From NCBI GenBank assembly GCA_943331445.1, contig CALQLO010000002.1, positions 62,001-126,000 of the forward strand: 64,000 nucleotides of DNA. The letters are read 5' to 3'. Origin of the DNA: Akkermansia muciniphila. Its GTDB lineage: Bacteria; Verrucomicrobiota; Verrucomicrobiia; Opitutales; UBA953. Made by a program: the position numbers and the translations under genes. The notes below the pieces were generated by a model. It was not told where the DNA came from. It did not search any database and saw only the letters and a list, made by a program, of their open reading frames with translations. This document shows, one piece after another, positions 1,687 to 9,413 of this stretch; the first letter of the stretch is position 1, and the number at the start of each line of letters is the position of its first letter.

Positions 1687-2814
1687 ATGAGTACGAAGAA
1701 AATCCGCATCGCCCTCGCCGGTCTCGGCTTCGGCGCCGAATTCATCCCGATCTACCTCGCGCACCCGAACGCGGAGATCGCCGCGATCTGCCAGCGCAAC
1801 CCCGCCAAGCTGAAAGAGATCGGCGACCGCTACGGCATCGCGAAGCGCTACACGGATTTCGATGCGCTACTGAAGGACCCGGACATTGACGCGATTCACA
1901 TCAACACACCCATCCCGGACCACGGCCGCCAATCCATCGCCGCCCTCAAGGCTGGCAAGCACGTGGCTTGCACGGTGCCGATGGCGACCTCGATGGCGGA
2001 GTGCGAAGAGATTGTGAAATTGGTGAAGGCCACGGGCCTGCGCTACATGATGATGGAGACGGTCGTCTACGCCCGTGAATTCCTCTTCGTGAAGGAGCTC
2101 TACGATAACGGCGAACTCGGTCGCCTGCAGTTCCTCCAGGCCTCGCACCAACAAGACATGGAAGGCTGGCCCGGCTACTGGCCCGGCCTCCCGCCGATGT
2201 ACTACGCCACGCACTGCGTTGGCCCCATGCTCGCCCTCACGCAGGCCTCCGCCGAATACGTCTCCTGCTTCGGCTCCGGCCGCATCGCCGAGGACATGAT
2301 CCCGATCTACAACTCGCCGTTCGCCGTCGAGACCGCGCATATCAAGTTCCATAAGTCCGACGTATCCGCGCGTATCATCCGCTCGCTCTTCGATACCGCT
2401 CGCCAATATCGCGAATCGATCGATGTCTACGGTTCGAAAAAATCCTTCGAGTGGCCGCTCGTCGAAGGCGAAGAGCCGGTCATCCACACGGCGAAAAAGG
2501 CCGAGCCGGAGATTCCGCAGAAAGTCAAAGTGCCGGACTATGCGCATCGCCTCCCGAAGGAGATTCAGCGCTTCACGACCAAGGGCGTCTATGGTGAAGG
2601 GGAAGATCACCTTTCCTTCACGCAAGGCGGCGGCCACGGCGGCTCGCACCCGCACCTTGCGAACGAGTTCATCCAAGCCTTGCTCGCCGGACGCGAACCG
2701 TTCCCAAATGCCGTGCAATCCGCCAACTGGACCTGCACCGGCATCCTCGCCCACGAATCCGCCATGGCCGGCGGCGAGATCCGCAAACTCCCCGCGTTTA
2801 CGTTGCCCGGCTGA
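1687..2814 (+). CDS. Gfo/Idh/MocA-family NAD(P)-dependent oxidoreductase
   Basis: Predicted NAD(P)-dependent dehydrogenase of 375 residues acting on a sugar, inositol or similar polyol. The N-terminal Rossmann fold starts IALAGLGFGAEF with the expected Gly pattern. The middle and C-terminal part, with NSPFAVETAH and the Gly/His-rich GGGHGGSHPHL near the end, matches the family's substrate domain. The family's catalytic E-K-P after GKHV is replaced by T-V-P at residues 96-98, so the usual Lys is missing; PVC bacteria have many divergent members and the activity may differ. The frame is open from 1606, but the stretch before ATG 1687 does not resemble the family, so 1687 is preferred. No signal peptide, so cytoplasmic. 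Confidence 0.88.
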   Translation: MSTKKIRIALAGLGFGAEFIPIYLAHPNAEIAAICQRNPAKLKEIGDRYGIAKRYTDFDALLKDPDIDAIHINTPIPDHGRQSIAALKAGKHVACTVPMATSMAECEEIVKLVKATGLRYMMMETVVYAREFLFVKELYDNGELGRLQFLQASHQQDMEGWPGYWPGLPPMYYATHCVGPMLALTQASAEYVSCFGSGRIAEDMIPIYNSPFAVETAHIKFHKSDVSARIIRSLFDTARQYRESIDVYGSKKSFEWPLVEGEEPVIHTAKKAEPEIPQKVKVPDYAHRLPKEIQRFTTKGVYGEGEDHLSFTQGGGHGGSHPHLANEFIQALLAGREPFPNAVQSANWTCTGILAHESAMAGGEIRKLPAFTLPG

Positions 2815-2838
2815 GCGCAGCTCAACCGCGAGTCAGCA

Positions 2839-2870
2839 GGTAGGGACAGCACCACGTGCTGTCCTTTTTT
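2839..2870 (+). terminator. GGTAG hairpin repeat acting as terminator (copy 1)
   Basis: Fixed design: GGTAG (2839-2843), stem GGACAGCAC (2844-2852), loop CAC, stem GTGCTGTCC (2856-2864), perfect 9 bp. Six T residues follow (2865-2870), so this copy has every feature of an intrinsic terminator for the oxidoreductase gene, which stops 24 nt upstream. It is one of a family of similar elements in the window. Confidence 0.8.
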
Positions 2871-2885
2871 GTGCCCGTGTATCGA

Positions 2886-2911
2886 GGTAGGGTCGGGACC
2901 GCGTGCTGCCC
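2886..2911 (+). repeat. GGTAG hairpin repeat, decayed copy
   Basis: GGTAG, then GGTCGGGAC, loop CGC, then GTGCTGCCC. Spacing is the same as in the other copies but the arms pair poorly, so it looks like a decayed or hybrid member. It lies 21 nt after copy 1. Confidence 0.6.
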
Positions 2912-2958
2912 TCGCGGCTTCGCAGCCGTTCACCCTGCCAGCAGTTCCCCATCTCTCC

Positions 2959-2986
2959 CGATACTCCATACTCGATACTCCATACT
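2959..2986 (+). repeat. Tandem 14-bp repeat, ATACTCCATACTC family
   Basis: Two perfect head-to-tail copies of CGATACTCCATACT (2959-2972 and 2973-2986). A related, slightly diverged copy lies in the opposite orientation at 7745-7774 after tRNA-Ser. The tract lies in the leader between the oxidoreductase gene and the next gene. Confidence 0.7.
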
Positions 2987-3006
2987 CTCACGCATATCTT
3001 ACTCCC

Positions 3007-4053
3007 GTGCCACGGCTCCTCTCCACCCTTCTCCTCCTGCCCCTCTCGCTCCTCGCCGCGGAACGCCCCTCGGTCGGCGCGATTCGCTGGGATGCTTGGA
3101 GTGGTGGCGGCGTGACCGAACAGGTCGAGCAGACGCTCAGCCCAGAGAAGTATCGCTTCCGACTACCGTGGTTCGCGGTGGTCGACACGGCCGGCCGTGC
3201 AGATATCAAGGGCGCCGCTGATGGCGTCATGGAGCAGGAGATTGCCTATGCGAAAAGTGCGGGGCTGGATTACTGGGCGTTCCTCACCTACCCGGAAGCC
3301 GACTCCATGAGCTCGGCCCTCGCACGCTATCTCCGCAGCCCGAAACGTACTGACCTCGGCTTCTGCCTCATCCTACATCAAACGCTTTCCGTGCCGGCTC
3401 CGCGCTGGCCAGCCGAACGCAATCGTGTGGTGAAGTTGATGCAGGAGCCAGGCTATCAGAAAACGCACGGGCGCCCACTCGTCTATACCTTCGACGTGAA
3501 GACGGAGCAGCCGACGATTAAACAACGCTTCGAAGAACTCCGCGCCGCGGCGAAGGTCGCCGGCCTTGATCCGTATTTCGTGTACATGGGTTGGAATCCG
3601 GCCCGCGACTACCAAGCCCACGCCAGTGAAGGTTTCGCTGCGGTCTCCGCCTACGCCCACCCAGGCACTGAGCCAGTCTTCGCAAAGTATCTCGCCGCCT
3701 TCGAGCAACACGCTTGGTCGAGTGCGCTCGCGAACAAAATTCCTTACGCACCGCTCGTCACCACGGGCTGGGATAAGCGCCCGCGCCAGGACCATCCGGT
3801 CTCGTGGGAAAAGAACGCTGGCTACGCCAACCAGAAGACATTCCCCGCCACCGCCACGCCGGGTGAGATCGCCGCACATCTTGGTCGAGCGCTCACCTTC
3901 GTGAAAGCGCATCCGGACATCTGCCCAGCTAACACCGTCATCATCTACGCGTGGAACGAGCACGACGAAGGTGGCTGGCTCTGCCCTACTTGGACGCCCT
4001 CTGGCAAGGCCGACACCTCCCGCCTCGACGCCATTCGAACTGTCTTGAGGTAG
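3007..4053 (+). CDS. Exported glycoside hydrolase family 71/99-like (WbsX-like) protein
   Basis: Predicted exported carbohydrate-active protein, 348 residues. The proposed GTG start gives a clean signal peptide (PRLLSTLLLLPLSLLAA, cleaved before ERP). The frame is open from ATG 2869, but that start would translate the repeats upstream, so it is rejected. The body reads like the TIM-barrel GH99/WbsX group: GLDYWAFLTYP early, GFAAVSAYAHPG in the middle and, near the C-terminus, IYAWNEHDEGGW, matching the W-N-E...E-G-G signature. Related enzymes act on mannans or other polysaccharides; the substrate here is unknown. The TAG stop lies inside the GGTAG of the following hairpin repeat, so the repeat supplies the end of the gene. 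Confidence 0.75.
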   Translation: MPRLLSTLLLLPLSLLAAERPSVGAIRWDAWSGGGVTEQVEQTLSPEKYRFRLPWFAVVDTAGRADIKGAADGVMEQEIAYAKSAGLDYWAFLTYPEADSMSSALARYLRSPKRTDLGFCLILHQTLSVPAPRWPAERNRVVKLMQEPGYQKTHGRPLVYTFDVKTEQPTIKQRFEELRAAAKVAGLDPYFVYMGWNPARDYQAHASEGFAAVSAYAHPGTEPVFAKYLAAFEQHAWSSALANKIPYAPLVTTGWDKRPRQDHPVSWEKNAGYANQKTFPATATPGEIAAHLGRALTFVKAHPDICPANTVIIYAWNEHDEGGWLCPTWTPSGKADTSRLDAIRTVLR

Positions 4054-7353: not shown

Positions 7354-7365
7354 GCGTCATCCAAA

Positions 7366-7391
7366 GGTAGGGACAGCACCACGTGCTGTCC
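7366..7391 (+). repeat. GGTAG hairpin repeat
   Basis: GGTAG, stem GGACAGCAC (7371-7379), loop CAC, stem GTGCTGTCC (7383-7391), perfect 9 bp, same 26-nt sequence as the copy at 2839. It begins 12 nt after the stop of the cytochrome fusion gene. No T tract follows; a separate terminator comes next. Confidence 0.9.
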
Positions 7392-7397
7392 TATTGA

Positions 7398-7421
7398 GGG
7401 CGGCTTCGGCCGCCCTTTTTT
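7398..7421 (+). terminator. Rho-independent terminator with TTCG loop
   Basis: GGGCGGC (7398-7404), loop TTCG, GCCGCCC (7409-7415), then six T. A classic intrinsic terminator for the cytochrome fusion gene, immediately after a GGTAG repeat. Confidence 0.9.
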
Positions 7422-7462: not shown

Positions 7463-7471
7463 GCTGTCTCA

Positions 7472-7497
7472 GGTAGGGACGGCTCTCCGAGCCGTCC
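7472..7497 (+). repeat. GGTAG hairpin repeat
   Basis: GGTAG, stem GGACGGCTC (7477-7485), loop TCC, stem GAGCCGTCC (7489-7497), followed by GTTCGCGGACGG. The core is identical to the copy at 4094. Confidence 0.88.
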
Positions 7498-7639
7498 GTT
7501 CGCGGACGGAGATACGGACCACGCTGGTTCTGTGCCACTTAGCCAATGCAAATCCCCCATTACCCCGCCGCTTGTCCGCCCCGCGGCGTTTAATTCTTGC
7601 CCGCAGGCGTTCCAGGGACTTCCTCAACAGTCCTGGTAA

Positions 7640-7727
7640 GGAGGGGTGGCAGAGTGGTCGATTGCGTCTGATTCGAAATCAGATGAACCGCAAGGTTCCG
7701 GGGGTTCGAATCCCTTCCCCTCCGCCA
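7640..7727 (+). tRNA. tRNA-Ser(CGA)
   Basis: Acceptor arms GGAGGGG (7640-7646) and CCCCTCC (7717-7723) pair. The anticodon loop is TTCGAAA within CTGA...TCAG, giving anticodon CGA (reads UCG). The long variable arm GAACCGCAAGGTTC is the class II hallmark, and the T arm is GGGGGTTCGAATCCCT. The discriminator is G and CCA is encoded (7725-7727). The 3' end is repeated downstream at 7881. Confidence 0.95.
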
Positions 7728-7744
7728 GGAAACTTTAACGTACC

Positions 7745-7774
7745 AGAGTATAGAGTCTCGAGTATGGAGTATAG
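7745..7774 (-). repeat. ATACTCCATACTC-family repeat
   Basis: On the minus strand this reads CCTATACTCCATACTCGAG followed by ACTCTATACTC, a diverged version of the tandem 14-bp repeat at 2959-2986. It sits in the spacer between tRNA-Ser and the first hairpin module. Confidence 0.55.
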
Positions 7775-7787
7775 GCACACAAGCCAC

Positions 7788-8011
7788 CCGAAGGGATGAG
7801 AACACGGGTTCGGTGAGCCCGCATGGGCGAACAGGCGTTGCCATCGGCAATGGGGCGTTAGCCCCAAGCGCAGCGCAGCCAATCCCTTCCCCTCCGCCAG
7901 GATATATTTCTAGGGGGCACGTGGACACGAGTATCGGTGACACGGGGCCGATACATCCTGCCGAAGGGATGAGAACCCGAGGTTCGGTGAGCCCGCACGG
8001 GCGAACAGGCG
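7788..8011 (+). repeat. Two copies of a structured ~50-nt module
   Basis: Copies at 7788-7837 and 7961-8011 begin CCGAAGGGATGAGAAC and end GGGCGAACAGGCG, differing at a few bases. Each can fold: GCCC (7817-7820) with GGGC (7825-7828), stacked on GTTC/GAAC (7808-7811 with 7829-7832). Between the copies lie two abutting perfect hairpins, TTGCC-ATC-GGCAA (7838-7850) and TGGGGC-GTTA-GCCCCA (7851-7866), and then the repeated tRNA 3' end. In the second spacer GTATCGG (7931-7937) pairs with CCGATAC (7948-7954). Confidence 0.75.
7881..7902 (+). repeat. Duplicate of the tRNA-Ser 3' end
   Basis: These 22 nt repeat exactly the last part of tRNA-Ser and the 3 nt after CCA (7709-7730), 172 nt downstream. 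An exact copy of a tRNA 3' end is the usual trace of site-specific integration or tandem duplication. No integrase is visible nearby. Confidence 0.8.
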
Positions 8012-8021
8012 ATCCGCACCG

Positions 8022-9413
8022 TCACTTCTGCTGGCGCAAGCTACGCTCTGAAGCGATTTTAGCCTCTAAGGCGACGACGCGCTCTTTAGCTAAGGTCATT
8101 TCTTCCGCTGAGGCAAAACTCGTTGCGACGGAATCCCGCTGACGGGGGGCCAAGTCATATTTGGCCCGCTCGGCCGTGTAGTCAGCCGGGCTCATGGGCT
8201 GCTTACCGCCTTCGAGCTCCTCGGGTGCCGGGATGTCGAACTGCAACCGCTTGGCCATCGGGGCATCGGCGGCGGCGCGAAACCATGCATACGCTTCGCG
8301 TAAGTTGGCGGGCGGGTCGCGGGTGATGTTTTCCGCGGGGAACGAACTGTTACCCAATGAAATATGCCAGTAGAGATTGGCGATCCACGTCTGCGCCTGC
8401 TTGCAGCCCAGGTAAGCGGAAGAGGTCCGCCATCGCAAAGACTCGGCCAAATCCCGCTTCACCCCGAAAGCCGTTTCGTAGTATCCCCCTAGGCGGAATT
8501 GAGCTAACTTGTGGTTATTGTTCACCGCCTTAGTCATCCATTTCACGGCTTCGAATTTATCTAGCTCCACATTCGGACGATCGCGGCTTTCGTGTGCATA
8601 CATCAGGGCTAATTCGTACATGGCCTGCGTATCACCCAGCTGGGCACTGCCTTTAAAGGCCTCGAATTTCTGGTCCGCGGTGAGTTCAGCTACTTTGGGC
8701 ACGATGACGGCTGCCTGGGCGGGCATGGGGGCTGCCTGGGCGGGCATGGGGGCCACCTGGATTTCACGGGCGACTGGCGGAGGGAGCGGCGCGGCCACGA
8801 CCAACCCGGCCGCGACTAACACCGCCAAGGTTGGCCGCACTGGGAGTGGGCCCGTGTAGGACACCGTAAAACTGTCCCGATCAATATATTTACCAAAGCC
8901 CGCGCAGTCTTCGCAAAAAACCCCTTTTAACTTGGTCGTGCCGCCGGCTGTTTCCGTGCCGATATGCTGGCCCTCGCCGCTGCAGCGCTTGCAAGTGGTG
9001 ACCTTATCAATTTGCAGCGTTGGCTTTTGGGATGCGATAAAAAGCAGAAAGAGGTCGAATGGTAATTTTCCGGTGGGTGTCGCTACGACGCCATTCCGGA
9101 AATACTCACCTTTTTTATCCAAGGCATACTGGGTCCGGAAAGCCTCCCAGATGCCCGGCCAGACCGCCCGGCCCGCGAGGGAGTTGATGTCCTTAAAGTC
9201 AAAGGCCCGTGGCTCCACGGTCCGCGCTTTGACCCTGATCCCATTAATCCCGGCTAACGTCGCCGAATCCAGGGCAATCCCGTCTTGGAAAATTTGCACC
9301 GGGAGGCCGTCCTCTCGGTAAACCCGGACAATGTAACCGTCGCTCCCCTTGTATACGGCCGCGCGGGCGCAGAGGCAGGACGCCATCCAGGCTACAAAAA
9401 ACAGACGATGCAT
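8022..9413 (-). CDS. Exported Sel1-repeat protein with CxxCxGxG zinc motif
   Basis: Protein of 463 residues with an N-terminal signal sequence (MHRLFFVAWMASCLCARAA). Two CxxCxGxG motifs, CKRCSGEG and CEDCAGFG, in the middle of the N-terminal half form one DnaJ-like zinc site. A hydrophobic segment (LAVLVAAGLVVAAPL) and a Pro/Ala linker follow; the linker holds a perfect in-frame duplication APMPAQA, encoded by a 21-bp tandem repeat (8711-8731, 8732-8752). The C-terminal half has Sel1-like helical repeats (AMYELALMYAHE, AQFRLGGYYETAFGV, AQTWIANLYW), usually protein-interaction scaffolds. The end (EEMTLAKERVVALEAKIA) looks like a coiled coil. No enzymatic function is evident. Confidence 0.72.
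   Translation of the reverse strand: MHRLFFVAWMASCLCARAAVYKGSDGYIVRVYREDGLPVQIFQDGIALDSATLAGINGIRVKARTVEPRAFDFKDINSLAGRAVWPGIWEAFRTQYALDKKGEYFRNGVVATPTGKLPFDLFLLFIASQKPTLQIDKVTTCKRCSGEGQHIGTETAGGTTKLKGVFCEDCAGFGKYIDRDSFTVSYTGPLPVRPTLAVLVAAGLVVAAPLPPPVAREIQVAPMPAQAAPMPAQAAVIVPKVAELTADQKFEAFKGSAQLGDTQAMYELALMYAHESRDRPNVELDKFEAVKWMTKAVNNNHKLAQFRLGGYYETAFGVKRDLAESLRWRTSSAYLGCKQAQTWIANLYWHISLGNSSFPAENITRDPPANLREAYAWFRAAADAPMAKRLQFDIPAPEELEGGKQPMSPADYTAERAKYDLAPRQRDSVATSFASAEEMTLAKERVVALEAKIASERSLRQQK

Follow-up and report, generated by a model that had tools for sequence, protein, structure and literature searches.

Our analysis identified one complete and one incomplete repeat unit directly downstream of a tRNA-Ser gene in the window, the whole 64,000-nucleotide stretch of DNA that was analyzed. 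We propose that these units are tRNA-anchored repeat cassettes of the RtT (rttR) kind, which act as DNA and recombine at the tRNA 3′ end, and we give this reading a probability of about 0.5. The proposal builds on the architecture of the units, on arms that match the tRNA, on a loop signature in the hairpins, on the exact presence or absence of units and on the exchange of spacers.

The tRNA-Ser locus in the window

The locus has the following parts (window coordinates and strand).

7640–7727, +: tRNA-Ser(CGA), the anchor gene (ARAGORN and Rfam RF00005)
7731–7787, +: spacer 1, family V; its core is a dispersed repeat found genus-wide
7788–7837, +: module 1, with the arm GAAGGGAT (7790–7797), GA, P2 (GAAC/GTTC, 7800–7803/7808–7811) and the first P3 hairpin
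7838–7880, +: remaining P3, with hairpins at 7838–7850 and 7851–7866 plus the GCGCAGCGC mini-hairpin
7881–7902, +: exact displaced copy of the tRNA-Ser 3′ end, forming P1 (8 bp) with the arm at 7790–7797
7903–7960, +: spacer 2, family X
7961–8011, +: module 2, an incomplete unit with an interrupted P3 and without a displaced tRNA end after it
8022–9413, −: gene for a Sel1-repeat protein, adjoining module 2; a homologue lies in the gene-bearing stretch of the tRNA-Ser array L210

The initial annotation had described two similar modules and a second copy of the tRNA 3′ end, separated by unlike spacers and accompanied by perfect hairpins, and this observation is real and above chance. The modules at 7788–7837 and 7961–8011 agree at 48 of 51 aligned positions (offsets, 173/174 nt), and the 22 nt at 7709–7730 recur at 7881–7902 with no mismatch (offset, 172 nt). 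The spacers (57 and 58 nt) are indeed dissimilar, 29.6% of shuffles scoring equally well, and both hairpins are perfect (TTGCC-ATC-GGCAA at 7838–7850 and TGGGGC-GTTA-GCCCCA at 7851–7866). It had also been suggested that a genome search might find the module behind other tRNA genes. Other tRNA-Ser genes do carry it: each of the five module matches in the genome, a 2.4-Mb assembly, follows either a tRNA-Ser gene or a displaced tRNA-Ser 3′ end, and hence the placement of the module is not due to chance. What had been overlooked is the complementarity between the module arm and the displaced tRNA end, by which tRNA fragment and module form one unit. The accompanying interpretation, a structured RNA whose blocks kept their spacing while the filler was replaced, is partly supported.

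Anatomy of a unit and its tRNA-matched arm

A unit runs from the tRNA 3′ half with its CCA, through a spacer that rarely holds genes, to the module (arm, GATGAGAA, P2 and P3), after which the next tRNA 3′ half begins. Within the module, the arm is followed by GATGAGAACC, by GGTTCG, which closes the short P2 hairpin, by the small hairpins of P3, and by AATCCC with the remaining tRNA 3′ end. In sequence, the arm is reverse-complementary to the T-stem together with a portion of the acceptor 3′ strand; therefore, the T-arm GGGTTC-GA-ATCCC is present with its arms inverted and the central GA kept. In the window, GGATGAGAA-N-GGTTCG lies downstream of the tRNA on the same strand, and the right border (GCC-AATCCC) has the displaced tRNA 3′ end, which is paired to the arm, P1 being GAAGGGAT/ATCCCTTC.

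The arm before GATGAGAA changes with the tRNA upstream, and the P1 arms, formed by pairing with the displaced tRNA end, are fitted to the tRNA of their own array. Beyond GGGAT, Watson-Crick pairing between an arm and its own displaced end amounts to 0.59, compared with 0.33 ± 0.03 when the ends are permuted (51 non-redundant units). In a second set from Verrucomicrobiota, drawn by a pattern fixing only GGATGAGAACC and GGTTCG, the corresponding values are 0.64 and 0.37 ± 0.05. Displaced ends do not contribute to tRNA formation, yet they are mostly exact: 105 of 126 units are identical to the tRNA at 16/16 positions, the search having required at least 12/16.

Exchange of spacers and presence or absence of units

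The replacement of filler proposed by the initial annotation is real because a sister genome (G002) has the same two modules and a different first spacer. Module 1, P3, the displaced tRNA end and module 2 of this genome are near-identical to those in the window, and its first filler is unrelated. A changed spacer 1 next to an unchanged module 1 fits gene conversion better than movement of a whole cassette, and gene conversion would most simply account for the exchange of filler between conserved blocks. The idea of constant spacing did not hold up, as lengths vary; across the genus, spacers at this locus measure 7 to 66 nt, and equal length is not a rule. The spacers were also described as unrelated, which is correct insofar as they are exchanged independently, but they are not arbitrary: genus-wide, those at the window locus belong to a few families common to different species, and their cores are dispersed repeats elsewhere in these genomes. 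Well over 100 dispersed copies of the spacer 1 core (window 7741–7778; GAGTATAGAGT...GGAGTATAGG) exist across the genus. We also considered that spacers might be plain copies of the host flank, which holds at many single-unit loci and fails for E. coli tyrT and the window genus.

The same tRNA-Ser locus is empty in some genomes of the genus, and others carry one or two units, with two module subtypes. Both in E. coli and in the window genus, filled and empty sites differ precisely at the tRNA 3′ end, and a unit leaves the tRNA intact. Some arrays contain gene-bearing stretches of 2 to 2.5 kb (L100, L209 and L210). The stretch in L100 encodes a cNMP-binding regulator, an isochorismatase and a pirin, and beyond it lie a module and a displaced tRNA end; the stretch in L209 encodes DUF805/Sel1, and that in L210 encodes a Sel1 protein with 30% identity to the product of the window gene at 8022–9413.

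The RtT (rttR) repeats of E. coli

Judged by its architecture, RtT (rttR; Rfam RF00391) is the nearest relative of the window unit, even though the window fails the RtT model. The ~178-bp RtT units, which occur in tandem, likewise consist of a tRNA 3′ end, a spacer, arm-GGATGAGAA-P2-GGTTCG, hairpins with GNA triloops, and AATCC joined to the tRNA 3′ end. They differ in the anchor tRNA (Tyr) and in being filed as RNA. The RF00391 covariance model gave no match to the window at E-values up to 10, compared with 133 to 138 bits for the E. coli copies, and a search of Rfam with the window unit gave no match.

The E. coli tyrT-tyrV locus has the same anatomy as the window and corresponds to Rfam's four RtT matches. 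RtT units are found in 4,655 of 5,426 E. coli genomes, at 1 to 9 places each. In 1,921 of the 5,426 genomes, including K-12, a 175-bp unit that has its own spacer sits precisely at the 3′ end of tyrT, and the E. coli strains examined that lack it have an uninterrupted site. This difference, seen in a comparison within E. coli only, could reflect gain of the unit or its loss via the flanking 19-bp repeat. In E. coli CV261 (NZ_CP040316.1), tRNA-Tyr is annotated as 153 nt long (L231:2943-3095), and the P3 of the unit apparently lies inside the tyrT T-loop, as read from the annotation and the match coordinates; such a position is the expected outcome of recombination between two GGTTCG blocks. This tyrT is probably non-functional, and tyrV is intact. 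In E. coli CH468, IS621 (IS110 family) has inserted near an RtT unit (L230:4442-5422).

Could such variation arise passively? An ancestral rearrangement beside the tRNA, followed by homologous recombination and gene conversion and involving no dedicated recombinase, would leave a tandem repeat whose copy number and spacers are altered by exchanges between identical tRNA 3′ ends or modules; the hairpins may promote slippage. The variable copy number in E. coli (1 to 9 places per genome, with five and six tandem units in two strains), the near identity of adjacent units in L065 and L078 and the independent exchange of spacers seen in G002 are consistent with this explanation. It is also in line with our finding no recombinase or integrase in the units examined or among the open reading frames read in the gene-bearing stretches. 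However, a passive repeat leaves unexplained why GATGAGAA and tRNA-matched arms are conserved across phyla and tRNA types, why the loops are those of DNA mini-hairpins, and why unrelated spacers occur within one array. We consider it rather unlikely.

Occurrence across taxa and tRNA genes

Scanning one genome per species with the pattern recovered at least 115 stretches. Among the matches listed, 74 of the 92 arrays with at least 300 nt of upstream sequence follow a same-strand tRNA at a distance of no more than 400 nt. The anchor tRNAs among the matches listed are mostly Ser, and Lys, Glu, Arg, Met, Gly, Asp, Thr, Gln, Val and others also occur; the taxa represented among these matches are Bacteroidota, Verrucomicrobiota, Pseudomonadota, Paenibacillus (Bacillota), Patescibacteria, Thermoplasmata and one nanoarchaeon. 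The gap from tRNA to GGAT across taxa ranges from 9 to 398 nt among the matches listed (median, 54), the largest values belonging to second or later units. Among the window's nearest relatives, the forward pattern is vastly commoner than its reversed control. The distribution within Verrucomicrobiota is patchy: the strict pattern occurs in 25 of 289 genomes, with 43 matches compared to 1 for the reversed control. The queries used found no copies in phage or viral collections, and a search of a plasmid collection found no copy of the window unit. We found no general tRNA-linked repeat of this kind in the literature, where most subscription journals lay outside our coverage.

Hairpin loops and folding

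Among 122 P3 hairpins with stems of at least 4 bp, 42 have a C(GNA)G triloop and another 13 have C(GNNA)G. GNA and GNNA loops on G-C stems, of the d(GCGAAGC) type, are exceptionally stable mini-hairpins in DNA (PMC4686876). Such loops occur in 0 of 83 hairpins from eight E. coli structural RNAs (rRNA, RNase P, tmRNA, CsrB, 6S and GcvB; Fisher P of ~1e−11), a comparison in which the RNA controls come mostly from one species and the units have common ancestry despite an 85% redundancy filter. At least one such loop is present in 36 of 75 units, compared with 1.9 in shuffles; the signature reaches 0.6% in flanking DNA (680 kb of flanks) and is absent from tRNAs. It is almost confined to the tRNA-sense strand, the other-strand form being found in 0 of 97 cases (main set) and 1 of 27 cases (second Verrucomicrobiota set). 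Relative to shuffles, the sense strand also folds better than the other strand as DNA (Wilcoxon P = 0.0009), whereas the two strands are alike as RNA (P = 0.19), where the z-scores are as good as those for DNA (sense-strand mean, −2.56). The window unit folds at −26.6 kcal/mol as DNA (z, −3.2) and at −48 as RNA (z, −2.6). Together, loops and folding point to selection on the sense strand to fold as single-stranded DNA, which is not proof of it.

The initial annotation was right about strong structure. RNA is not the best reading of it, because the loops carry the signature of single-stranded DNA and a terminator-like hairpin often precedes the module (41 of 63 non-redundant spacers versus 20 of 63 reversed controls). 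A structured RNA would be an RtT-like trailer processed from the tRNA transcript, with a regulatory or sponge function, in which P1 prevents the additional tRNA 3′ copies from disturbing the folding of the tRNA. RtT has been reported as a processed RNA that is released from tRNA operon transcripts and has stringent-response effects (PMC2965389; PMC4986893), and both the sense-strand mean z-score and the good folding of the window unit as RNA agree with such a role. On the other hand, C(GNA)G loops are missing from the RNA hairpins examined, terminator-like hairpins stand between tRNA and module in many taxa, and an RNA would be hindered by the displaced tRNA copy and have no need of it. An RNA function appears unlikely to us.

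Proposed recombination model and comparison with known systems

Returning to cassettes that act as DNA, we infer that they fold as single-stranded DNA in the cell and recombine at the T-arm. The tRNA-sense strand, once single-stranded, would adopt a P1/P2/P3 junction, and units would be inserted, deleted or shuffled by recombination at the T-arm and 3′ end, the spacers being altered by gene conversion between conserved blocks. The topology would be that of integron cassettes, with the tRNA replacing attI and P1/P2/P3 replacing attC. In both, arms of a folded strand flank the crossover side, terminal hairpins are variable, units stand in tandem at a fixed anchor, and genes are carried occasionally. 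The R boxes of attC have the consensus GTTRRRY/RYYYAAC. It is not found in the window unit, whose arms, GAAGGGAT/ATCCCTTC, are dictated by the tRNA; integron attC is thus the nearest topological analogue, an analogy and not a membership. The units further differ from integron cassettes in that their arms match the local tRNA and most are geneless, and we know of no integrase for tRNA-anchored units.

Integrative elements at tRNA 3′ ends also have a displaced tRNA 3′ end as their right border and leave the tRNA intact, but tRNA-anchored units are ~110 to 180 bp long, have no integrase, and contain an inverted T-arm and hairpins. That the units are ordinary att-site scars of tyrosine-integrase islands using tRNA-Ser is disfavored and highly improbable: such islands do occupy the same tRNA-Ser genes, with a phage-integrase family protein encoded in L211 and T-arm remnants in C48 and C55, but scars retain the TTCGAATCCC junction without arm, GATGAGAA or P3, whereas modules end with hairpins-AATCCC and recur across phyla. 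The right border of the window unit has GCC-AATCCC in place of the intact att core TTCGAATCCC, unlike the apparent scars in C48 and C55. C48 and C55 carry additional displaced tRNA-Ser 3′ ends that have a T-arm junction, and these are probably island scars. The island in L211, with the phage-integrase family gene at L211:3960-5150 and a putative DNA methyltransferase open reading frame at 2028-3126, lies between two full tRNA-Ser copies, the second of which has a module.

The 3′ external transcribed spacers of tRNA operons, of the 3′ETS-leuZ type, are likewise sequences directly 3′ of a tRNA; they are not known to have a displaced tRNA end or the GATGAGAA module. The model of Rfam sX4 (RF02223, a proteobacterial sRNA) covers a tRNA-Ser-like part and ends with GGGGGGUGAGA, which resembles the module start, but it stops before P2 and P3. 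Its match in the window (7632–7799, tRNA-Ser and the first module bases) is weak and below the gathering score, and sX4 itself may be a tRNA-Ser with a module start. A hammerhead-like core (GAUGA-stem-GA) was ruled out, as no GAAA strand follows P2.

The tyrT repeats of E. coli have been known for decades and have no agreed function. A broader reading, which we put forward tentatively and with some doubt, is that they belong to pan-prokaryotic cassettes for which tRNA genes are the attachment platform and folded single-stranded DNA is the substrate of a putative recombinase, RtT being a member misfiled as RNA. What has passed for a small RNA may in fact be a mobile DNA cassette. As one case of a wide bacterial and archaeal design, the tyrT repeats would turn from a single-operon oddity into a testable question, namely, whether a recombination system docks at tRNA genes; if true, some annotated small RNAs would be by-products of DNA elements.

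Two minor observations concern the surroundings of tRNA-Ser genes. A tRNA-Ser(GCT) gene lies at a contig end (G000:C23:25936-26026). Upstream of the tRNA in the window are two related palindromic intergenic repeats (GGTAGGGACNGC...GCNGTCC; 7365–7403 and 7471–7509), and similar palindromes are found beside other tRNA-Ser loci of the genus.
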